Shown here one piece after another: positions 23,002-35,637 of a stretch of 61,001 nucleotides of DNA; position 1 is the stretch's first letter, and each line of letters opens with the position of its first letter. The stretch lies in NCBI GenBank assembly GCA_002937655.1, contig PTKH01000006.1:1-61001 (forward strand). The letters run 5' to 3'. The notes below the pieces were generated by a model. The model saw only the letters and a list, made by a program, of their open reading frames with translations. It had not been told where the DNA came from and did no database searches. The DNA comes from Alphaproteobacteria bacterium MarineAlpha9_Bin3. GTDB lineage: Bacteria; Pseudomonadota; Alphaproteobacteria; TMED109. The translations under genes and the position numbers were made by a program.

Positions 23002-24345
23002 TCATTTTCCTATACAAAAACCTAAAAAAATTTCGTCTAATACATCTTCTATGTCCACTAGGCCTACTATTCTTCCCAAAGAAACAGATGCCGCCCTTGT
23101 AAAATCGGCCGAAACATCTATTTTCCCTTTCTTTGCCTCTTTTAATGCTTCCTCTAGGCTTCCTTTAGTTTCTCTTAGGTGGCTCATATGCCTTATTCTA
23201 TTGGGGGCTACTGCCATGTCAGAAACAGAAGTCATGCCTTTGACCTCTTTGGATAAGCCCTCTATTAAGCGCTTAATTCCCTTCTTAGTTTTACATGAGA
23301 TGCTATAGCCTTCGCCTTTATGGTAATCTTTATTTTCTATAAGATCTGCCTTATTATAAACCTTTACAATTCTGGAAAATTTGTACTCTGATGTATCTAG
23401 TGACCTTAATGCTTTAGAGGGTGAGGGGGCGCCAATAGATAATATTATATCAGCATTTTGAGCGACTTTAATAGCCCTCTGAACCCCTTCCTTCTCTATT
23501 TCGTTTTTTGTATCTCTTATGCCCGCTGTATCGTAAATAGTTACAGGCACGCCTTCTAAATTTAGTCTAGCCTCTATAGCGTCCCTCGTCGTCCCTGGGC
23601 TTGAAGACACTATTGCCCTGTCTTCATTAAGAAAAGTATTTATAAGGCTTGATTTGCCGACATTAGGCGGCCCTATTAGCACAATTGTTATTCCTCTTCT
23701 TAGTCTTTCTCCCGCCATTCCTGCTAAAAGCTCTTTTTCAATATTCTTTATTAAATTGGAAATATTTTTAATAAAATTAAAGCTATCTGCTTTTTGAGAA
23801 ACATCTCCTTCATCTGAAAAATCTATCAAAGCCTCCATTTCTGCTCTCGTCTCTATTAGCTTTTGCCTCCAATCAATATATTTTTTTGATAGCTCTCCTT
23901 TTAACAGTTTTATAGACTGTGTTTTTTGTTGTTTTGTTTCTGAGGATATTAAATCTGCCAAGCCTTCTACTTCTGTTAAGTCCATTTTACCGTTTACTAA
24001 GGCTCTTTTTGTGAATTCTCCTGGTTCTGCAGCCCTTAGCCCTTTTAAAGTTGAAAAGAACAAGAAAAGATCATCAATCACAGCTATTGAGCCATGAAGA
24101 TGAAATTCTGCCAAGTCTTCGCCGGTTATGCTTTCATTCTCAGGAAAAAAACAAACCAGCCCTATATCTATAATTTCGTGGTCAGTCGGCTTAAGCTTTG
24201 TCAATGTTAGCTTTCTAGGCGTGAAAATTTTAGCGCCCAAAAGGCGCATTACTTCTCTTGCTTGCGGCCCACTGACCCTTACTATTGCGATAGCTGACGG
24301 TAAAGGCCCGCTAGACAAGGCGTATATTGTTTGAGAATTGTTCAT
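23002..24345 (-). CDS. mnmE: tRNA modification GTPase MnmE (TrmE)
   Basis: 447 aa from ATG 24345. The N-terminal tetrahydrofolate domain (TIYALSSGPLPSAIAIVRVSG) is followed by the G domain inserted in a helical region: G1 GPPNVGKS (about 225-232), G2 SSSPGTTRDAIEA, G3 DTAGIRDT, and G4 KVYNKADLI. The C-terminus is the conserved CIGK with the catalytic cysteine. It partners MnmG. ATG 24345 has a good SD (GAGGG, 5 nt away). A longer start at 24381 would translate through the parS site and is rejected. Confidence 0.97.
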   Translation of the reverse strand: MNNSQTIYALSSGPLPSAIAIVRVSGPQAREVMRLLGAKIFTPRKLTLTKLKPTDHEIIDIGLVCFFPENESITGEDLAEFHLHGSIAVIDDLFLFFSTLKGLRAAEPGEFTKRALVNGKMDLTEVEGLADLISSETKQQKTQSIKLLKGELSKKYIDWRQKLIETRAEMEALIDFSDEGDVSQKADSFNFIKNISNLIKNIEKELLAGMAGERLRRGITIVLIGPPNVGKSSLINTFLNEDRAIVSSSPGTTRDAIEARLNLEGVPVTIYDTAGIRDTKNEIEKEGVQRAIKVAQNADIILSIGAPSPSKALRSLDTSEYKFSRIVKVYNKADLIENKDYHKGEGYSISCKTKKGIKRLIEGLSKEVKGMTSVSDMAVAPNRIRHMSHLRETKGSLEEALKEAKKGKIDVSADFTRAASVSLGRIVGLVDIEDVLDEIFLGFCIGK

Positions 24346-24364
24346 ATTGCCCTCAATAATAGCT

Positions 24365-24380
24365 TGTTTCACGTGAAACA
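24365..24380. promoter_or_regulatory. parS site (ParB-binding centromere), perfect
   Basis: TGTTTCACGTGAAACA: a perfect 16-bp match to the bacterial parS consensus, 19 bp upstream of the mnmE start and about 11.3 kb from the candidate oriC. With the site at 22985 it brackets mnmE. Confidence 0.96.
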
Positions 24381-24443
24381 TATATACTTATTTGTTTATT
24401 ATCTATATATTATATCATATAATTAAAATTTAGGAGCAAAGTT

Positions 24444-26162: not shown

Positions 26163-26903
26163 CTAAGTCTTTTTTTTCTTTCTAGCTCTATAAAAATACC
26201 TTTTTACAGAAGGTCTTATTGCTATATATGTGCCGCTAATAGATAAAAATATTATTAAAAAGCTTGTAACAGTAAATATAAGCATGACAAAGGGCCCGAA
26301 AAATCTTCCGTTATGTAAATCAGCAACTAGTCTTAGAGCTTGGATGCCAGGGCCCTGAACTTGGCTTAAAAAATAATTGGCGGTTTCTATATCTGGAATA
26401 GCTAGGAAGCTCTCGTTAAATTGTCCATTGCTTTCTTCAAATAAAGCAAACTCAAGGTTTTGATCAATGGTATAAAATGTACTATTAATATCTTTTATAA
26501 TAACTTTATTGTCTTTTATTCCAATGGCTTTAATTATAAAAGGAGTTTGCGCCTCTTTAATAATTTCCAAATCATAATCATTCTCTCGAATAACCATAAT
26601 TAAGTTATCGCTTGAAACAAATATCAGATCATCTTTTCTTATTGCTCCATTAATGTCATTAACACCTATTTCTAAAACCATATCTGATATAATAATTTTA
26701 GTTTTGACAACTCCTATATCTTCTGTAGCTTTTACATCTGAAGGGCTATACATGCCGTATAGAGAATATATAAAGTTGTTTGTAAAGTAAGTATCTTGGA
26801 GCTTGAAAGTACTAGGATACATTAAGATAATGCCTGTTATAGACAAATGTATAATAATTAAACAAACACTAAGCCCTATGATTTTATGCAGCTTTTTAAG
26901 CAT
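26163..26903 (-). CDS. PepSY-type membrane protein
   Basis: 246 aa. One N-terminal helix (about 7-29) and one C-terminal helix (about 203-227) enclose a periplasmic region, followed by a basic cytoplasmic tail (RARKKKKT). It resembles PepSY-associated TM proteins, with LHKIIGL at the start and DLHNGRFFGP before the second helix. His6, His19 and His197 sit at or in membrane segments and could ligate heme, which is an inference. Such proteins carry electrons across the inner membrane, often for iron reduction. It lies 9 nt after the FMN-binding gene in one operon. Confidence 0.72.
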   Translation of the reverse strand: MLKKLHKIIGLSVCLIIIHLSITGIILMYPSTFKLQDTYFTNNFIYSLYGMYSPSDVKATEDIGVVKTKIIISDMVLEIGVNDINGAIRKDDLIFVSSDNLIMVIRENDYDLEIIKEAQTPFIIKAIGIKDNKVIIKDINSTFYTIDQNLEFALFEESNGQFNESFLAIPDIETANYFLSQVQGPGIQALRLVADLHNGRFFGPFVMLIFTVTSFLIIFLSISGTYIAIRPSVKRYFYRARKKKKT

Positions 26904-26912
26904 TAATATAAA

Positions 26913-27440
26913 TTATTTACAATTTATATCTGGAACAAGGCTATTCATAGCAAGAGCTAGCCTTGTCATTTTTTCCATACTATTTACAGATAAAGTTGCA
27001 CCAGCTATTCCGTCTATTCTTTTATTTAATTTAAATCCGTCTAACATATTAATTCCTATAAATTGGTCTCTAAAACTTGGGTACTTAACTTCCCAACCAT
27101 GTGTTTCTCGATATACTAGAACATGTATGCTAGAAATGCGACAATTTTCAACTATAAAGCCTGCAGTAATAAGCTGGACTTTGCCAATTCTCTCTAAAAT
27201 CCAAGCTGTTTTATTATCTTCACGCCAATATTTAATTCTTATTTTTTTATAATTGCTGCCCATAATTTTTTGGGCAACTTCTTTTACTTCATTCTTGAAC
27301 CTAAGTCCTTTTCTTCTAGGAACGTCCTCATCAAAAGCAATCTTTAAAAATTCTTCTTTACTTAGAAGCACATCTTCTGATGAAGCATTAAAAGAAAAAA
27401 ATACAGTTAATATAAATAAGATTTTTACAAAATTTCTCAT
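26913..27440 (-). CDS. Periplasmic FMN-binding (flavinylated) domain protein
   Basis: 175 aa. A signal peptide (KILFILTVFFSFNASS) ends near residue 21. The C-terminal FMN-binding domain carries DGIAGAT (143-149), matching the Dxx(S/T/A)GAT flavinylation motif, with Thr149 the expected FMN attachment site for ApbE. No apbE is in this window. With the PepSY membrane protein next door, it probably relays electrons to a periplasmic acceptor, perhaps ferric iron. It is downstream of porin 2 on the same strand, but a terminator separates them. Confidence 0.8.
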   Translation of the reverse strand: MRNFVKILFILTVFFSFNASSEDVLLSKEEFLKIAFDEDVPRRKGLRFKNEVKEVAQKIMGSNYKKIRIKYWREDNKTAWILERIGKVQLITAGFIVENCRISSIHVLVYRETHGWEVKYPSFRDQFIGINMLDGFKLNKRIDGIAGATLSVNSMEKMTRLALAMNSLVPDINCK

Positions 27441-27501
27441 AGTTTTTCTACGTACACAATAGTAAGTTTAGATTAAATTAATTTTAATATGCAATTATAA
27501 T

Positions 27502-27557
27502 AAAAAAAGGATAGAACAGAAACTATATTAATTATTATTTTAGCCACTGTTCTATCC
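27502..27557 (-). terminator. Terminator after porin 2
   Basis: A perfect 11-bp stem GGATAGAACAG / CTGTTCTATCC (27509-27519 and 27547-27557) has a 27-nt loop. On the minus strand it is followed by seven T residues. It would attenuate readthrough into the FMN-binding/PepSY genes rather than necessarily block it. Confidence 0.75.
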
Positions 27558-27606
27558 TCCTTTGTTCTTAGGAAGGCATTTAAATAGATTTCATATAAAA
27601 TCTATT

Positions 27607-28788
27607 TTAGAAATTATACCCCATGCCCATATTAAAGCCTTGAACTGCTGTAGAACCGAAAGTTTTCTTTCTTTCCCAGTCTGCTTTAAGTACAGCTTGG
27701 TCTGTTAGCCACCAGTTAACACCAAATGTGCTCATAGTGATGTTATTTTTAGTTGTAGTAGCATTTTTTGTACCTGCTTTATCGTCCCACTCTTGTCTTC
27801 TAAACATTACTCCAAGACTTTGAGTTTCAGTTACGTCCCAACGATAGCTTCCTTCAGCATACCAGCCCCATTGATGATTACGGCCGTTCTCTGCACACTG
27901 ATTAGCGTCAGTAAGTACTGGTGGACAATCTAGGTCCCATTGACCATAAAATGCTCTAGTACCAAAGCCTCTAGAAGGCATATAGTTTGCATGTACTGCA
28001 TACATCTTACCAGTAACTTGAGGTCCTGATTGTCCCTCATTCATATCTGGCTCATAGTCCCATGAGAAACCAAGTTCTAACCCAGGATAAGCACCAGTAT
28101 ATCTAACAGCACCAGAATAAGCTTCTTTATTCATTGTAGCAGAACCAACTTTATCTCTACCGGCACGAATATCACCTTGAGTAGATGTTAAACTAGAGTG
28201 AACACCTGCAATTATAGTTAAATCCATATCTGGAATTACATGAGTTGCTTGAAAACCACCTTCCCAACGTGTGTTGGAACAGATTTCTTTTTCCACTACA
28301 TTTCTCTCTACACCATAAAAGGTAGGAGGCTCATGTATTTCATTTGTAATACCACATGGAATTAAGAACAAACCGTATTTCATATTTGTGTTAGGTAAGC
28401 CATATTCACCCCAATTATGGTCAAGATAAGCTTGCTCAAGCTCAACTTCACCGACTTTACCTTCACCAGCTATACTATGCTCTAATTCAAACTCTGAAGC
28501 CATGCTCACAGAATCGTTAAATTGATGATTTATGAATAAAACGTATCTATGAAAGTCTATAGATCCTGAGCCGTTATTATTGTTATAATGTAATTCACCA
28601 TAACCACCAACGGCAGTTTTAGTCCACCAACCAGCAGTGCCACTAGCTTCTGCACTATCTTCTAGGTCGTCTATTCTATCTTGTAAATCTTTCATTGCAT
28701 CTTGTAAATCACTCATGTCATCTGCCATTGAATTAAAAGCAAACAAAGAAGCAATTAAAAACACGAACATTTTGAAAAATTTGTCCAT
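27607..28788 (-). CDS. Outer-membrane porin with N-terminal coiled coil (porin 2)
   Basis: 393 aa from ATG 28788, which has a strong SD (AAGGAG, 6 nt away). The signal peptide (FFKMFVFLIASLFAFNSMA) is followed by a short heptad segment, MSDLQDAMKDLQDRIDDLED. The barrel starts AVGGYGELHYNN and ends GMGYNF. The N-terminal coiled coil resembles trimerising segments of phosphate-selective (OprO/OprP-like) porins. The barrel resembles that class too, but the substrate is unknown. Genomic context (Fur-like sites, imelysin, cytochrome) suggests a role in iron-limited growth. Confidence 0.85.
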   Translation of the reverse strand: MDKFFKMFVFLIASLFAFNSMADDMSDLQDAMKDLQDRIDDLEDSAEASGTAGWWTKTAVGGYGELHYNNNNGSGSIDFHRYVLFINHQFNDSVSMASEFELEHSIAGEGKVGEVELEQAYLDHNWGEYGLPNTNMKYGLFLIPCGITNEIHEPPTFYGVERNVVEKEICSNTRWEGGFQATHVIPDMDLTIIAGVHSSLTSTQGDIRAGRDKVGSATMNKEAYSGAVRYTGAYPGLELGFSWDYEPDMNEGQSGPQVTGKMYAVHANYMPSRGFGTRAFYGQWDLDCPPVLTDANQCAENGRNHQWGWYAEGSYRWDVTETQSLGVMFRRQEWDDKAGTKNATTTKNNITMSTFGVNWWLTDQAVLKADWERKKTFGSTAVQGFNMGMGYNF

Positions 28789-28867
28789 TATCTTCTCCTT
28801 GTAATTGTTTAAAAACCTACTTAATTCTCGCAATCCCCCAAAATACTAATTTAATATTCCAATTGGG

Positions 28868-28885
28868 AATGAGAATCAGTATTAG
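28868..28885. promoter_or_regulatory. Fur-like operator, copy 1
   Basis: AATGAGAATCAGTATTAG. The core TGAGAATCAGTATTA matches 11 of the 14 half-site bases of the 7-1-7 Fur consensus TGATAAT-N-ATTATCA. It lies just downstream of the minus-strand -10, over the expected start of porin 2 transcription. It is one copy of an 18-bp direct repeat (AATGAGAAT-N4-ATTAG). Confidence 0.6.
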
Positions 28886-28896
28886 TTGCACTTTTT

Positions 28897-28925
28897 TTTA
28901 TAATGAGAATGCGAATTAGTGTCAA
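28897..28925 (-). promoter_or_regulatory. Minus-strand promoter of porin 2
   Basis: On the minus strand, TTGACA (28925-28920), a 17-bp spacer, then TATAAA (28902-28897). The spacing is ideal. The second Fur-like copy occupies exactly the spacer, so repressor binding would block polymerase. Confidence 0.65.
28902..28919. promoter_or_regulatory. Fur-like operator, copy 2
   Basis: AATGAGAATGCGAATTAG, the second copy of AATGAGAAT-N4-ATTAG, 34 bp from copy 1 (about three helical turns, so on the same DNA face). The right Fur half-site is weaker than in copy 1. It falls between -35 and -10 of the porin 2 promoter. Confidence 0.55.
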
Positions 28926-28962
28926 AGATAATTCCAACAAATCTGCCGTTTTAATTAAATGC

Positions 28963-28980
28963 TGTTGCAAAAATACAACA
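28963..28980. promoter_or_regulatory. 18-bp palindrome in the porin 2/imelysin control region
   Basis: TGTTGCAAAAATACAACA. Its 7-bp arms are identical to the element at 12740-12757 upstream of porin 1; only the 4-bp centre differs. It is about 80 bp upstream of the porin 2 start point and about 90 bp upstream of the imelysin start point. This 306-bp gap (28789-29094) has no ORF of note and is filled by control elements. Confidence 0.55.
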
Positions 28981-29024
28981 AGAAAAAAAGCAAAAAATTT
29001 CACTTTTCCATGGCAAAAATATTA

Positions 29025-29054
29025 TTGACACTAATATTTAGTCGCATATATAAT
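29025..29054 (+). promoter_or_regulatory. Plus-strand promoter of imelysin-cytochrome operon
   Basis: TTGACA (29025-29030), an 18-bp spacer, then TATAAT (29049-29054), both perfect hexamers. The 11-bp sequence TTGACACTAAT at the -35 is repeated in inverted orientation at 28915-28925, the -35 of the divergent porin 2 promoter. This suggests a shared control site. Confidence 0.75.
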
Positions 29055-29094
29055 ATGTACCTATTTGTTTTTATATAAAAAAAGGGAAAGAAAG

Positions 29095-30249
29095 ATGTTT
29101 AAAATTAGGTTTGCTGTTTTAATGCCAGTATTGTTCGTGTTTTTATTTTTAGGAAAATCCGCATATACTGCAAATGAGAGCTTAAATAGTCTTGCAAAGA
29201 GCTATGCCAGTCTTGTAAGCCACTATTATGATGAAGTTGCTTTAAAAACAAAAAGCCTTCACAAATCAATTGTGCAATTTACAGAAAACCCAAATAACAG
29301 CAATTTTAACGAAGCAAAAAATAAATGGATAGAAGCCAGAATGGTTTATGGCATAACAGAAGCTTTTCGTTTTTATGGAGGACCCATTGATGGCGTTAAT
29401 CAATACGGAGAAGAAGGTCCAGAAGGTTTGATAAATGCTTGGCCGTTAAATGAAGCCTATATAGATTATGTCAAGGGCAGTCCTAACGCAGGAATTGTCA
29501 ACAACATGACTATAGATATAAATAAGGAAACTATTATTGCTGCAAATATGTCTGAAGATGATGCTGACGTTTCTACAGGCTGGCACGCCATAGAGTTTTT
29601 ACTTTGGGGCCAGGACTTTTCTCTAGAAACAGCTGGCAAGAGAGAATATACTGATTACCTGCCTGAGAATGATACAAACAAAAGAAGAAAAGAATTTCTT
29701 CTAGCAGCAAGTAGTTTATTACTAGAGCATGTAAATTGGTTGGCTGATGAATGGTCTAAAGAAGGAGAAGGAAGAAAAAGTTTTTTAGCGAAGAATGATC
29801 CTGGCGGAGCAATTCTCACAGGTATTGCCACATTAGCGGGTTTTGAACTATCTTCTGAAAGAATAGCAACGGCGTTAGATTCAGGAGACCCTGAAGACGA
29901 GCATTCTTGTTTTAGCGACCAAACTCATAATGATGTTAAAGCAAACTTTAATGGAATTAAAAATGTTTATTTAGGAAAAGGATTAAACGGTTTAAATTTC
30001 ACCCCTTCAATTTCTGAATTTGTTATGGATAAAAATATGAAATTACATGAAGATATTATGCAAGTTTTAAATAGCACGAATAATTCTATAAATAATATTA
30101 CAGTTCCTTTTGACAAAATGCTTTCTGAGCCTAAAGATGGTCCTGGCAGACAAGCTGCCGAAAAAACTGTTAGCAACTTGTTAGTTCTTGCAGAAAACTT
30201 TAAGGAAGCAGGTAAAAATCTAAATTGGAACGTAATTATCGCCGAATAA
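29095..30249 (+). CDS. Imelysin-family (M75/IrpA-like) periplasmic protein
   Basis: 384 aa from ATG 29095. The signal peptide (FKIRFAVLMPVLFVFLFLGKSAYTA) is followed by an all-helical imelysin domain with the GxHxxE signature in GWHAIEFLLWG, plus GPEGLINAWPLNE and TLAGFELSSERI. Despite the M75 label, family members are mostly iron-regulated periplasmic proteins thought to bind metal. It belongs to the COG3487 (IrpA-like) group, supported by its neighbour, the COG3488 di-heme protein. An ORF start at 29065 (+10 aa) is possible, but the signal peptide fits ATG 29095 better. Confidence 0.9.
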   Translation: MFKIRFAVLMPVLFVFLFLGKSAYTANESLNSLAKSYASLVSHYYDEVALKTKSLHKSIVQFTENPNNSNFNEAKNKWIEARMVYGITEAFRFYGGPIDGVNQYGEEGPEGLINAWPLNEAYIDYVKGSPNAGIVNNMTIDINKETIIAANMSEDDADVSTGWHAIEFLLWGQDFSLETAGKREYTDYLPENDTNKRRKEFLLAASSLLLEHVNWLADEWSKEGEGRKSFLAKNDPGGAILTGIATLAGFELSSERIATALDSGDPEDEHSCFSDQTHNDVKANFNGIKNVYLGKGLNGLNFTPSISEFVMDKNMKLHEDIMQVLNSTNNSINNITVPFDKMLSEPKDGPGRQAAEKTVSNLLVLAENFKEAGKNLNWNVIIAE

Positions 30250-31619
30250 ATATTTTTTTTACAAGTTTAGTAATATTATTCTCTGTATTACTTTTTTTAT
30301 CTATTAATAAAATTAGTAGTAAAGAATTATATGAGAATATGGATAAAGAAATATCTGTCAATAGAGAAACTAGGGAGTCTTTTGCTGCCCCTATTCCATC
30401 TTTATCATTATCCAAAATGCGTTTATTTACAGGAGGCCGGCATCTATTTCGCCGTTCATGGACTCCCGCTCCCAGCTCAGTGGAAAGCTTGGACGGTTTG
30501 GGGCCAGTGTTTAACCGTGTTAGCTGTTCCGGTTGCCATGTAAAAGATGGAAGAGGAAGACCGCCTAAAGCTGATGGGAAATTTAGATCTATGGTAATTA
30601 AGCTTTCGCTTTTGAATAACAATAAAATCTATCCAGACCCTAACTATGGCTACCAGTTAAATGATAAATCTATATTGGGGGTTCCTTTTGAGGGAAAGGC
30701 TAAAATAGAATATTCCTTAATCGATATAAAGCTAGCTGATGGAACGATCAAAAAATTGTCCGAACCATACATTACTTTTAACTCTTTATCCTTTGGTAAA
30801 TTCCATGACGACACAGAGTTTTCAGGTAGAGTCGCGCCTGTTGTGTTTGGCTTAGGTCTTTTAGAAGCAATCTCCGATGAAGATATACTCAAAAAAGCAG
30901 ACCCAGACGACATAGACAATGATGGAATATCGGGCCGCGTACATTATATTTTGGACGCACCAAGTAAAGAAAATATGATAGGTAAATTTGGTTGGAAAGC
31001 AACAAGAGCCACTTTACTTCATCATATAACTGGGGCAGCTTCGCAAGATATGGGCCTTACATCAAATATCTTTCCTAAGACGAACTGCACAAAAATACAA
31101 AAGTCTTGCCTGGAACAAATTAATGGGGGACAGCCAGAAATTTCAGATGCTCAAATAGAGCGCTTACTTGTTTATATGCAAACTCTAGCGCCACCAAGAC
31201 AAAGAAATAAAGATGAAAATAATATTCTTGAAGGTAGAGGATTATTTAAAAAAATAGGTTGTGAAAATTGCCATACCTCTTCTTATAAAACTGGAGTTCA
31301 TCCACAGCACCCTGAATTAAGCCATAGAATTATTAAGCCTTACAGTGATTTTTTACTACATGATATGGGAGAAGGTTTAGATGATGGCGTCAATGAAGAC
31401 AGCGCCAAAAGTTATGAATGGAAAACTCCTCCACTATGGGGTATAGGACTTGTAAAAACAGTTAACAAGCATACTAGATTTTTACACGATGGGCGTGCAA
31501 AATCAATTGAAGAAGCCATTTTATGGCATGGGGGAGAAGGCAAAAAAGCAAAGGATAATTATATTTCCCTAAACCAAAAAAATAGGAAAAAAATATTAGA
31601 CTTTCTTAACTCATTATAA
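30225..31619 (+). CDS. Di-heme c-type cytochrome, thiol-oxidoreductase-like (COG3488)
   Basis: 464 aa. An N-terminal membrane anchor or signal (about residues 10-28) is followed by two CxxCH heme sites, CSGCH (101-105) and CENCH (about 346-350). SLDGLGPVFNRVSC and TRFLHDGRAKSIEEAILWHGGEG match the DHOR family next to imelysins. It resides in the periplasm. The start is TTG 30225, overlapping the imelysin gene by 25 nt, because no ATG or GTG supplies a signal sequence. The family name thiol oxidoreductase is historical and activity is unproven. The gene ends 1 nt from the convergent rho. Confidence 0.9.
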   Translation: MERNYRRINIFFTSLVILFSVLLFLSINKISSKELYENMDKEISVNRETRESFAAPIPSLSLSKMRLFTGGRHLFRRSWTPAPSSVESLDGLGPVFNRVSCSGCHVKDGRGRPPKADGKFRSMVIKLSLLNNNKIYPDPNYGYQLNDKSILGVPFEGKAKIEYSLIDIKLADGTIKKLSEPYITFNSLSFGKFHDDTEFSGRVAPVVFGLGLLEAISDEDILKKADPDDIDNDGISGRVHYILDAPSKENMIGKFGWKATRATLLHHITGAASQDMGLTSNIFPKTNCTKIQKSCLEQINGGQPEISDAQIERLLVYMQTLAPPRQRNKDENNILEGRGLFKKIGCENCHTSSYKTGVHPQHPELSHRIIKPYSDFLLHDMGEGLDDGVNEDSAKSYEWKTPPLWGIGLVKTVNKHTRFLHDGRAKSIEEAILWHGGEGKKAKDNYISLNQKNRKKILDFLNSL

Positions 31620-32885
31620 TCACTGATTCATGCTATCGAAAAACTCTGAATTAGTTTTTGTTCCTTTTAATTTATCAACTAAGAAGTCCATTGCGTCGCT
31701 CATGCCCATAGGGCCCAAAATTCTTCTTAACATCCACATTTTTGATAAATCCCCCTTTTCAACTAGAAGCTCTTCTTTTCGAGTTCCTGATTTTGCTATA
31801 TCTATTGCAGGGAAAGTCCTCTTATCCGCAAGTTTCCTGTCAAGAACAATCTCAGAGTTACCAGTGCCTTTAAATTCCTCAAAGATAACTTCGTCCATTC
31901 TTGACCCTGTTTCAATTAATGCAGACGCTATTATAGTAAGAGAGCCTCCTCCTTCAATATTTCTTGCTGCACCAAAAAATCTTTTAGGCTTCTGAAGGGC
32001 ATTAGCATCTACTCCTCCTGTTAACACTTTACCTGAGGAGGGAACTACTGTGTTATATGCTCTTCCTAATCGAGTTATAGAATCTAACAATATAACAACA
32101 TCTCTTCCATGCTCTACTAATCTCTTGGCTTTTGAAATAACCATTTCTGCTACCTGAACATGTCTCATAGCGGGCTCATCAAAAGTAGATGATATAACTT
32201 CTCCTTTAACTGAGCGCTGCATATCTGTAACTTCTTCTGGCCTTTCGTCTATTAAGAGAACTAAAAGATATATTTCTGGGTGATTTTTTTCTATTGAATG
32301 TGCAATATTTTGCAATAACACTGTTTTCCCTGTTCTTGGTGGAGCTACAATTAAACCTCTTTGCCCTTTGCCTAATGGGCTTACCAGCTCAATTACCCTG
32401 CAAGAATTATCGCGATTCTTGTCTGGTTTTTCAGAATCAATTTCAAGCTTAATTCTTTCTTCAGGATATAATGGTGTTAGATTTTCAAAACGCACTTTGT
32501 GCTTTACCTTGTCAGGTGAATCAAAATTAATTTTATCTATCTTTAATAAAGCAAAGTATCTTTCTCCGTCCTTAGGTTGCCTAATTTGTCCTTCAATAGT
32601 GTCTCCCGTTCTTAAACCAAACTTTCTAACCTGAGAAGGAGAAACATAAATGTCGTCTGGACCAGGTAAATAATTACTTTCCGGAGCTCTTAAAAAACCA
32701 AACCCATCAGGAAGAATTTCGATTACGCCGTCACCGTTAATTATATCTCCATTATCTGCCAAATTTTTTAAAATAGAAAACATTAAATCTTGTTTTCTTC
32801 TATTTGATGCGTTTTCTACCCCTTTTTCTTCAGCAAAAAGGATTAGGTCTGCAGGAGACATTTGTTTAAGTTCTTTTAAGTGCAT
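31620..32885 (-). CDS. rho: Transcription termination factor Rho
   Basis: 421 aa. It has the N-terminal Rho-N helix bundle ([20 protein letters not shown]), the cold-shock RNA-binding domain ([20 protein letters not shown]), Walker [17 protein letters not shown], Walker [17 protein letters not shown], and a Q/R-loop region [14 protein letters not shown]. It is the hexameric RNA helicase that ends transcription. Its location between mnmE and the hem genes near the origin is typical of alphaproteobacteria, but here a 7-kb block separates it from mnmE. The 169-bp leader upstream is AT-rich with no confident attenuator. Confidence 0.98.
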
Positions 32886-33054: not shown

Positions 33055-33570
33055 TTATAATTTTTTACAAAAATCATCCACTCTTTGCCAATCTGTAAAA
33101 TCATATGCACCATTTAGATTTGTTGGCCCTTTAGTTACCCACATAATGAAGCATATCATAAGTCTATCTATCAAATTATATTTCTTATAATCAATTTTAC
33201 CTGCAAAAACTCCAAGGTGTTTTGGTTCCCATTTAGTTATCTTTAAGAATTTTTGTATGTACGGATTATTTTTGGGCGAACTTTTATTTGTTTTACGAGC
33301 TACTACATTTACTGAGAAGAAGGCATTATCTATTTTATCTAGTAAAGTTTTATTTTCTTTTATAAACTTATAAACATTTGAACGATGTTTTCCGTATCTA
33401 ATGCTTGCTCCAATAATTACAAAGTCATATTTGATAAGCTCTTCTCTACAAATATCTTCTACAGAAATAATTTTTACATTATTGCCTTTATTTAAATTTA
33501 AACGCATTCTCTCACAAATTTTTTGAGTATGTCCGTCTACACTAGAATATATTATTAAAAATTTTGTCAT
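33055..33570 (-). CDS. hemG: HemG-type protoporphyrinogen IX oxidase (flavodoxin fold)
   Basis: 171 aa from ATG 33570, 7 nt after hemH. The flavodoxin FMN loop IIYSSVDGHTQKI is followed by the HemG hallmarks FVIIGASIRYGKHRS and FFSVNVVARK, YIQKFL, a W-rich loop (ITKWEPKHLGVFAG), a membrane-touching insertion (YNLIDRLMICFIMWV) and TDWQRV. It oxidises protoporphyrinogen IX using a membrane quinone as acceptor. Many alphaproteobacteria carry hemJ at this place, so HemG here is unusual. It forms an operon with hemE and hemH. Confidence 0.9.
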   Translation of the reverse strand: MTKFLIIYSSVDGHTQKICERMRLNLNKGNNVKIISVEDICREELIKYDFVIIGASIRYGKHRSNVYKFIKENKTLLDKIDNAFFSVNVVARKTNKSSPKNNPYIQKFLKITKWEPKHLGVFAGKIDYKKYNLIDRLMICFIMWVTKGPTNLNGAYDFTDWQRVDDFCKKL

Positions 33571-33577
33571 TACATAT

Positions 33578-34582
33578 TCACCAATTGGAACTATGTTTTT
33601 CAACAATGTTTTTAATAAAAGAAGCATGAAGCTGAGAATTATTTAAACAAGGTATATAAGCAAAGTCTTCTCCGCCGGCTTCTATAAAAATATCTTTGTT
33701 TTCTTCATTGATTTCTTCTATAGTTTCTAAACAATCTGCGCTAAATCCAGGAGCTAAAACAATAATATTTTTTATTCCTCTCTTAGGCAGCTCTTCCATT
33801 TTATCACTAGTATAAGGTTGCAGCCATTCATCTGGTCCAAATCTAGATTGAAAAGTAGTAATATATTTTTCTTTTTTAAGTTTCAGTTTTTTAGCAACTA
33901 GTTCTGTCGTTTCTTTACAAAAGAAACCATACGGGTCTCCTTTATTCATATTTCTTTTGGGAATTCCATGATAGCTAAAAACTATTTTTTGCGGTTTTTT
34001 AATTTTTATCTGTTTTTTTAAAGATTCTGCAATAGCTTCCACGTAACCCGCATCTTTATGATAGCCATTAATAAAGATAAGGCTAGGAACCCATCTCCAT
34101 TTTTTTAAAACATTTGTTACGGCATCAAAAACACTTCCGCTAGTAGTCCCAGAATATTGAGGAAAGGTGGGAAATATTATTATTTTATCACATCCTTTTT
34201 TTTTAAGAGATAAGAGCCCTTTCTCTATACTAGGGTTTCCATAGCGCATGGCGAGGACATACTTTATATTATTTTCTGAATTGGAATTTAATCTTTTTAC
34301 TAATCTTTTTGAAAAAACCATTAATGGAGAACCTTCTTTCATCCATACCGTTTTATATAGTTTTCCCGATTTAAGAGGCCTTAAAGTTAAAATAAATAAA
34401 TTTAAAATAAACCACCATAAAAACTTTGGTATTTCTACTACTCTTCCATCTGACAAAAACTCTTTAAGAAATTTTCTTACGTCTAAATAACCATAACTTT
34501 CTGGGGTTCCCAAATTACAGATTAAAACGCCCACATTATTTGGCATTTTATTTTCTTTAATTTTTTCTCCTAAAAAATTCAT
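33578..34582 (-). CDS. hemH: Ferrochelatase
   Basis: 334 aa from ATG 34582. It has GVLICNLGTPESYGYLDVRKFL, the central IIFPTFPQYSGTTSGS, VFSYHGIPKRNM with the metal-binding His, YITTFQSRFGPDEWLQPYT and APGFSADCLETIEEI with the catalytic Glu. It inserts Fe2+ into protoporphyrin IX. ATG 34582 overlaps the hemE stop by 4 nt (ATGA), while ATG 34546 is a shorter alternative matching many family starts. Confidence 0.96.
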   Translation of the reverse strand: MNFLGEKIKENKMPNNVGVLICNLGTPESYGYLDVRKFLKEFLSDGRVVEIPKFLWWFILNLFILTLRPLKSGKLYKTVWMKEGSPLMVFSKRLVKRLNSNSENNIKYVLAMRYGNPSIEKGLLSLKKKGCDKIIIFPTFPQYSGTTSGSVFDAVTNVLKKWRWVPSLIFINGYHKDAGYVEAIAESLKKQIKIKKPQKIVFSYHGIPKRNMNKGDPYGFFCKETTELVAKKLKLKKEKYITTFQSRFGPDEWLQPYTSDKMEELPKRGIKNIIVLAPGFSADCLETIEEINEENKDIFIEAGGEDFAYIPCLNNSQLHASFIKNIVEKHSSNW

Positions 34583-35637
34583 TTTTCCCAATCTCTAATG
34601 ACTTTGATTAATTTATGTATATTTTCAATAGGCGTTTCTTTTATTACCCCATGTCCTAGATTAAAAATATGTTTCAATGAAGAAAAGCTCTCTAATATAT
34701 AATGAATATCTCTCTCCATTTGAATTCCGCCTTTTAATAAAACTTCTGGGTTTAAATTACCTTGCAAACAAATATTACGCATTTTTTTAGATTTTAGATT
34801 ATTTATTAGTTCTAATATATCAACATTTTGGTCTATAGAAAGACAATCAATATTAACATTGTTAACATACTCCAGGTAATAGTTGCCTGCGTTTCTCGGA
34901 AATCCAATTATAGGTATATTAGGATATTTTTTTTTTATATTTTTTATAATTTTTTTATTTGGCTCAATACAAAACCGTTTAAATTTATTTTCCTTTAATG
35001 CTATTTCTGCATGAGATTCAAAAATTTGAATAGCTTCTGCGCCTGCTTCTATTTGTTTTATGAGGTGATCAGAAATAAAAACCTCTAATTTATTTAATAA
35101 TTCCAAAAAAGTTTTTTCATATTTATTAAAAAAATATATACAATTAGAAAAATCTTTACTCCCTTTTCCTTCTATCATATATGCCGCAATAGTAAATGGT
35201 GCTCCTGCAAAACCTATTAACGCTTTTTTTTCTTTAAGCTCACTTTTTACCAAATTTAAACTTTCGTATACTGGTTCTAAATATTCAACATTTGTTAATT
35301 GGAGGTCAAAAACTTCTTTTTCTTCTTTTATTGGTTTTAAACGCGGCCCTTCATTTTCTACAAACCTTAAATCTCTATCACATGCCATAGGTATTGTTAA
35401 AATATCAGAAAAAATAATTGCAGCATCTAAGTCAAATCTATCAAGTGGTTGTAAAGTAACTTCTGCAGATAATTTAGGATTCATGCATAAGTTTAAAAAA
35501 GACCCTGCCTTTTTTCTAATTTCTCTGTATTCTGGTAAATATCTTCCTGCTTGACGCATTAACCAAATAGGCTTTACTGAAGAGTATTTGCCATTTAAAG
35601 TTTTGATAAAACTAGACTTGTTTTTAAATTTATCCAC
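34579..35637 (-). CDS. hemE: Uroporphyrinogen decarboxylase
   Basis: 352 aa. It has the N-terminal signature PIWLMRQAGRYLPEYR, AAIIFSDILTIPMA, GFAGAPFTIAAYMIEG, and HGVIKETP near the C-terminus. It removes four carboxyls from uroporphyrinogen III. The start is GTG 35637, which lies inside a perfect DnaA box (35630-35638). hemE borders the replication origin in several alphaproteobacteria, as it appears to here. Confidence 0.97.
   Translation of the reverse strand: MDKFKNKSSFIKTLNGKYSSVKPIWLMRQAGRYLPEYREIRKKAGSFLNLCMNPKLSAEVTLQPLDRFDLDAAIIFSDILTIPMACDRDLRFVENEGPRLKPIKEEKEVFDLQLTNVEYLEPVYESLNLVKSELKEKKALIGFAGAPFTIAAYMIEGKGSKDFSNCIYFFNKYEKTFLELLNKLEVFISDHLIKQIEAGAEAIQIFESHAEIALKENKFKRFCIEPNKKIIKNIKKKYPNIPIIGFPRNAGNYYLEYVNNVNIDCLSIDQNVDILELINNLKSKKMRNICLQGNLNPEVLLKGGIQMERDIHYILESFSSLKHIFNLGHGVIKETPIENIHKLIKVIRDWEK

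Follow-up and report, generated by a model that had tools for sequence, protein, structure and literature searches.

The window analysed here is a stretch of 61,001 nucleotides from Alphaproteobacteria bacterium MarineAlpha9_Bin3 (contig PTKH01000006.1, positions 1 to 61,001), part of an alphaproteobacterial draft genome of 1.62 Mb that is 96% complete. Between its mnmE (23002-24381) and rho (31620-32885) genes lies an insertion, common to congeners, that holds five genes of interest, encoding a porin, a flavin mononucleotide (FMN)-binding protein, a PepSY_TM-family membrane protein, an imelysin and a di-heme protein of the DHOR/DUF1111 type. These genes are best explained as a Fur-controlled reductive iron-assimilation module, a reading in which we have moderate confidence. 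It draws on the gene content, an invariant gene order, the conservation of cofactor residues, shared Fur-type boxes, and the repeated proximity of imelysin-DHOR, apbE and fbpA genes. The unit is two-tiered, with porin, FMN protein and PepSY protein (PORIN-FMN-PepSY) as its constant part and the imelysin-DHOR pair as a recurrent but optional one. The features of the region are as follows.

26163-26903, minus strand: two-helix membrane protein of the PepSY_TM family, a predicted b-type cytochrome (PF03929, 43.4 bits, cut-off 28.8)
26913-27440, minus strand: secreted FMN_bind protein with predicted flavinylation at T149 in DGIAGAT (PF04205, 26.2 bits, cut-off 22)
27503-27563, minus strand: long hairpin with a T run between the porin and FMN genes (inverted repeat; RNA fold -26.1 kcal/mol, z=-4.4)
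27607-28788, minus strand: outer-membrane porin with a short N-terminal coiled coil and many invariant E, H and R residues (Pfam matches of the family alignment)
28870-28884, plus strand: Fur-type box TGAGAATCAGTATTA; the near-identical TGAGAATAAGTATTA precedes the genome's own fbpA
28897-28925, minus strand: probable porin promoter TTGACA-17-TATAAA, its spacer overlapping a Fur-like box; mirrors the imelysin -35 region
28904-28918, plus strand: second Fur-type box TGAGAATGCGAATTA, a direct repeat 34 bp from the first
29025-29054, plus strand: imelysin promoter TTGACA-18-TATAAT (12/12), its spacer containing the operator-like CTAATATTTAGTCGCA; congeners have corresponding boxes
29095-30249, plus strand: secreted imelysin (M75) with GWHAIE as the GxHxxE motif (PF09375, 204 bits; 7XRX, 3e-37)
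30225-31619, plus strand: di-heme DHOR/DUF1111 protein with CSGCH and CENCH and an N-terminal signal or anchor (PF06537, 263 bits)

On the minus strand the porin gene is followed, after a gap of 166 bp, by the FMN_bind gene and, after a further 9 bp, by the PepSY gene. The imelysin and DHOR genes, which overlap each other by 25 bp, run divergently from the porin on the plus strand. Translation more probably begins at ATG 28788 in the porin gene and at ATG 29095 in the imelysin gene. Genes for a dienelactone hydrolase and a quinone oxidoreductase are also present in the mnmE-rho interval. The initial annotation of this DNA had placed the same five genes here, and the Pfam matches and coordinates agree with it; its position for Thr149 in DGIAGAT is likewise correct, the sequence reading DGIAGATLS.

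A 175-residue query from the FMN protein was searched against 144 genomes, and profiles were run over the phylum (398 genomes) and the class (385 genomes). The FMN protein was found in 26 of the 144 genomes: 22 belong to the window's family, three come from three different alphaproteobacterial families beyond it, and one is a weak match. The profile searches added the families f10, f124, f135, f196, f197, f207 and f209, as well as f139 and f177 from outside the class, bringing the triplet to a total of 13 families of Alphaproteobacteria and other Proteobacteria. Wherever the contig is long enough the order is constant, with the porin upstream of the FMN gene and PepSY downstream. The full five-gene arrangement occupies the same place in three loci of the window's genus (L038, L039 and L040); a fourth, L043, has part of it, and loci of two other genera (L041 and L042) show it as far as their contigs reach. 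The initial annotation had proposed that co-occurrence across genomes be checked, and what emerges is a recurrent triplet of fixed order, with imelysin linkage beyond chance. A chance neighbourhood peculiar to this strain is rejected on the linkage statistics and on the carriage of the triplet in congeners and 13 families.

Six genera of three families have an imelysin gene at a distance of 0.9-4.8 kb from the FMN gene (g1, g3, g4 and g5 of the window's family, f124, and f151 of another class), in at least five arrangements (IMEL, imelysin; IMEL2, second imelysin):

Window: imelysin divergent from the porin
L044: IMEL-DHOR-IMEL2-DUF1513-PORIN-FMN-PepSY, on one strand
L049: PORIN-FMN-PepSY-small protein-IMEL-DHOR
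L116: imelysin operon (IMEL-DHOR-IMEL2-DUF1513) split over both flanks of the module, together with apbE
L120: IMEL-DHOR-IMEL2-DUF1513-PORIN-FMN-ApbE-DUF4405-like, a complete operon joined to the sister version described below

An imelysin gene was found within 5 kb in six of nine genera, where chance would give about 0.7% per genome (binomial p=7e-12; p=6e-6 when the small-genome members of that family count as a single event with the window's own). It is a recurrent rather than an obligate partner, since the triplet often occurs with no imelysin nearby. The window genome itself holds one imelysin. A further link to iron comes from Fe(III)-binding proteins of the FbpA type, which are divergent neighbours of the module in L055 and L044 and, as judged by sequence, in L034; the named Protein Data Bank (PDB) matches of these neighbours are nearly all iron-binding proteins. 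The window genome has an fbpABC-type Fe(III) importer operon, and a search of the genome for FeoB found none, so that FeoB was rejected as the partner importer in this organism. The initial annotation had described the unit as working without TonB components. This holds for the cluster, but the organism is not TonB-free, as its genome encodes TonB, ExbB, ExbD and two receptors.

The region between the porin and imelysin genes contains two 19-bp direct repeats, AATGAGAATCAGTATTAGT and AATGAGAATGCGAATTAGT, which resemble Fur boxes of the 7-1-7 type. The Fur-type pattern matches twice (0.09 expected), and the exact box pattern of TGAGAATCAGTATTA occurs once in the window, with none expected. In the genome's own fbpABC-type operon, TGAGAATAAGTATTA stands 26 bp before the binding-protein gene. 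The porin and imelysin promoters are mirror-imaged, with operator-like sequence filling both spacers. Better boxes are found in relatives (TGAGAATTATTCTCA in L050 and L044, TGATAATCATTCTCA in L034 and L055, TGATAATCACTATCA in L051 and TGATAATCATTATCA in f139), and in most loci Fur-type boxes lie ahead of the porin gene. When upstream stretches of 310 bp were scored against dinucleotide shuffles, the combined Fisher p over 39 loci was 7e-26, a figure inflated by the relatedness of the loci and by a consensus that was relaxed once the first set had been inspected. The later-fetched loci L106-L116 form a fairer set, in which five of 11 reach p<0.01 (four of the five from one genus) and nine of 11 p<0.06. 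The window genome contains a fur gene. Iron regulation, the lack of which the initial annotation had named as counting against an iron function, is indicated by the boxes together with the Fe(III)-binding-protein linkage.

T149 of the FMN protein is invariant in 60 of 60 FMN_bind homologues, within a flavinylation motif that reads AGAT in the window protein and SGAT in most homologues. The initial annotation had called for an apbE gene elsewhere in the genome, and two copies are present, both outside the cluster. In the sample of 144 genomes, apbE is found in 22 of the 25 that are clearly FMN-positive (Fisher p=4e-8), and the three without it are metagenome-assembled genomes that are 54-75% complete. 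Outside the window's family, apbE adjoins the triplet in 10 of 11 alphaproteobacterial loci (L053, L107, L116, L153, L155, L156, L157, L158, L162 and L163, but not L154). One of the genome's two apbE genes (L133:3133-5998) follows the gene for a Fer4_5 (NosR/NapH-like) membrane protein and for that reason may serve another flavinylation system. The FMN homologues of genomes G254 and G285 (L086 and L092) each have one TGA inside the matched stretch, which may reflect draft errors, start-site read-through or pseudogenes.

The PepSY protein had been described as a two-helix protein with membrane histidines. Two hydrophobic segments are indeed present, at about residues 4-33 and 199-233, and H6 (37 of 37 homologues) and H197 (36 of 36) are invariant; H19 in the first helix is found in only 11 of 37 and is not generally conserved. 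From the Lys/Arg-rich ends, both termini are predicted to be cytoplasmic, which would place H6 near the inner and H197 near the outer face of the membrane. A profile built from 19 homologues aligns with FoxB (7ABW) at its first helix (E=5.6e-4), and an AlphaFold2 (AF2) model with a predicted local distance difference test score (pLDDT) of 75 has two long helices around a beta-rich domain. A comparison of this model with PDB folds gave no significant match (best E 2.9e-3, TM score about 0.3), and NCBIfam has no family for the protein. FoxB has four helices and two hemes with His ligands at each face (PMC13038864, PMC10979944). A two-helix subunit corresponds to half of FoxB, and a homodimer would therefore rebuild a FoxB-like arrangement; the PepSY protein probably acts as such a homodimer, with half a FoxB per subunit and one bis-His heme per membrane face. 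In sister genera the gene after PepSY is a conserved fourth gene, encoding a small secreted Cys-containing protein (NKPSCxRLGNxYDACQW; L044:8116-8553, L049:8055-8456, L050:8140-8541 and L055:7074-7460), which has no convincing Pfam family and is absent from the window's genus. In family f139 (L109, L112, L114 and L115) a membrane protein of 389-424 residues, NnrS-like by eye, is encoded near the module.

The assignment of the porin in the initial annotation stands by way of its relatives: the window protein itself has no Pfam match, and five to six members of its family alignment match Porin_O_P, Porin_4 or OMP_b-brl. NCBIfam has no family for it. Numbered from the TTG start at 28833, residues E80, R96, E114, E118, E133, H167, E168, R177 and E191 are invariant over 43 sequences, and H82, D93, H95, E116, H119 and E181 nearly so. 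The alternation E114-x-E116-x-E118-H119 resembles an acidic strand facing the lumen of a barrel. The hairpin at 27503-27563 is a probable partial terminator or RNA processing element, and with its U tract between the porin and FMN genes it may raise the porin level above that of the redox proteins. A porin homologue with no FMN or PepSY neighbours is encoded on Candidatus Manganitrophus plasmids of the Nitrospirota (L061:4884-6047).

Weaker FMN matches led to a sister version of the module, PORIN-FMN-ApbE followed by a DUF4405-like protein of about 140 residues in place of PepSY. Other families carry it, on chromosomes as well as on Sphingomonas, Ideonella and Bradyrhizobium plasmids (L058, L060, L062 and L117-L124), and G031, the genome with a weak FMN match of 26 bits, has it too. 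The Sphingomonas barrel is a DUF6662 protein. Support for DUF4405 is weak, with one of three proteins tested reaching E=0.007, below the Pfam cut-off. DUF4405 proteins are heme b cytochromes associated with flavinylation (PMC10979944). Since the sister clusters carry a DUF4405-like protein in place of PepSY, the slot for the membrane cytochrome seems to be exchangeable, the constant part being porin and flavoprotein.

For the favoured iron-assimilation module we infer the following direction of electron flow, substrate and division of labour. Electrons from the quinol pool would pass to the hemes of the small PepSY cytochrome and from there to the periplasmic flavoprotein, whose FMN would be attached to Thr149 by ApbE encoded elsewhere. 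The flavoprotein would reduce the ferric iron of small chelates in the periplasm, to which the co-encoded, acid-lined porin may admit them. The imelysin-DHOR pair would capture the freed iron and re-oxidise it or manage its redox state, and an FbpA-type Fe(III) ATP-binding cassette importer would then take it up. The role of the porin and the hand-over to imelysin are our own proposals. Related systems point in the same direction, in that PepSY-like flavinylation clusters and VciB have been tied to iron reduction (PMC8238504), a PepSY-like locus of Caulobacter is a Fur target needed under ethylenediaminetetraacetic acid (EDTA) (PMC11870441), and imelysin-DUF1111 operons have been tied to iron uptake (PMC3143127).

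Several results weigh against this explanation. Imelysin is not near PORIN-FMN-PepSY in g7, g8, f28, f60, f97, f139 and f177, and in g7, g8 and f177 it is present in the genome but away from the module. The combination of an Fe(III) importer with no detected FeoB fits iron reduction awkwardly. The window box departs from the palindrome at three positions, and in a genome-wide sample of boxes obtained by pattern search the strongest Fur-type palindromes precede a peroxiredoxin gene and a glutathione S-transferase-like gene with no evident iron role, for which reason boxes alone are no proof of iron control. PDB profile searches with the porin and with the FMN protein returned nothing relevant, and the AF2 model of the porin, built from five close sequences, was unusable (pLDDT 33).

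The main rival, which we consider unlikely, is that electrons from the PepSY protein and flavoprotein feed the DHOR/MauG-type protein, which would reduce peroxide or oxidise an imelysin-bound substrate, the iron control reflecting the heme and iron context. DHOR does adjoin the module in g1, g3, g5, f124 and f151, a CCP_MauG di-heme peroxidase gene lies directly upstream of the sister module in Ideonella, and the strong palindromes at the peroxiredoxin gene would fit as well. However, most modules have no gene for a di-heme protein nearby, imelysin is common without the module (111 of 398 genomes have imelysin, 22 the FMN protein), and a peroxidase function leaves the porin and the FbpA linkage unexplained. 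The possibility that two unrelated units, porin-FMN-PepSY and imelysin-DHOR, are neighbours by chance was already disfavoured and is very improbable: each does occur alone, and several family members have imelysin on a separate contig, but their adjacency recurs in at least five arrangements with the statistics given above, and they share a divergent control region with mirrored promoters.

Other readings concern the substrate and where it is met. Reduction of another metal or substrate such as copper, as proposed for the PepSY_TM protein CrpH, would make iron incidental; PepSY_TM proteins are diverse, CrpH being copper-linked (PMC13038864), and L053 adjoins an ArsP_1-type permease gene. The linkage to FbpA and imelysin operons and the Fur-type boxes in many loci make this decidedly improbable. 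Only slightly less improbable is an outer-membrane conduit, in which the porin would hold the flavoprotein and electrons would leave the cell to reduce extracellular ferric colloids or chelates. The adjacency of porin and flavoprotein genes in every complete locus, with both cytochrome versions, and the many invariant residues of the two proteins speak for it; the cluster, however, encodes no surface electron carrier, the small flavoprotein has a single predicted flavin, modelling of the barrel failed (pLDDT 33), and the literature searched offered no precedent. Porin-cytochrome conduits of the MtrAB type likewise pair a porin gene with the gene of a periplasmic electron carrier, whereas here the carrier is a single FMN_bind protein whose insertion into the barrel is hypothetical, and the porin, FMN and PepSY proteins contain no CxxCH of a multiheme carrier. 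More speculatively, proteobacteria may possess a general, modular set for electron export made up of porin, covalent-flavin protein and small cytochrome (PepSY or DUF4405-like, interchangeably). The flavoprotein would dock at or in the porin, and ferric chelates would be reduced inside the pore or beyond it. Such a set would be a TonB-free equivalent of the conduits with a single flavin, serving iron assimilation; we regard this reading as doubtful.

PepSY-like flavinylation systems have been defined by the presence of a PepSY protein in such a cluster (Meheust et al. 2021, PMC8238504), and by that definition the module is a variant of them. It shares with them a PepSY_TM protein and a periplasmic ApbE substrate in a context of iron assimilation, and, only outside the window's family, apbE within the cluster. 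It differs in that the substrate is an FMN_bind protein, a porin is always present, and PepSY has two helices by hydrophobic segments and model instead of the three stated; the DUF2271 and DUF4198 partners, frequent but not obligatory in those systems, are absent from the genes between mnmE and rho. Porins and imelysin are unmentioned in the main text of PMC8238504. FoxB of Pseudomonas and, by its description, VciB of Vibrio cholerae resemble the window protein in belonging to PepSY_TM and in having conserved histidines at both membrane faces. The window protein, in contrast, is a single short unit of two helices and a beta-rich loop, with one invariant His per face, because of which two hemes would need a dimer, and it is encoded with a flavoprotein and a porin, not with a siderophore receptor.

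Imelysin-DUF1111 operons (PA4370-PA4373) and EfeUOB (PMC3143127) share with the window a GxHxxE imelysin followed by DUF1111/DHOR, Fur-type boxes and the lack of EfeU in the operon. The window has IMEL and DHOR only, joined to the flavin/PepSY chain and porin; the second imelysin and DUF1513 of the usual operon form are absent from it and present in L044, L116 and L120. There is no EfeU/FTR1 permease between mnmE and rho, the interval to which the search for it was confined. As for the DUF4405-type flavinylation cytochromes (PMC10979944), the sister module seems to use one in the same slot, whereas the window module has PepSY, and a porin is unmentioned in that paper. In a partial literature search, which did not extend to survey supplementary tables that may list such clusters, the set as a whole was not described, and neither were its constant porin, an FMN_bind protein where DUF2271 would stand, a PepSY protein of two helices, a link with imelysin operons or the parallel DUF4405 version. 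If the iron-assimilation reading is true, flavinylation-based iron reduction gains an outer-membrane component, and marine bacteria with small genomes may have a reductive way to iron that needs no dedicated receptor. The repeated linkage also joins flavin chemistry to imelysin-DUF1111 operons.

Beyond the module, the stretch between rho and hemE (33055-34591) encodes a hemG-type (flavodoxin-like) protoporphyrinogen oxidase and hemH. In L038, L039 and L040 a different hemH (29% identical) is present and a membrane protein of ~150 residues, HemJ-like by eye, replaces hemG, an apparent replacement of the gene pair.

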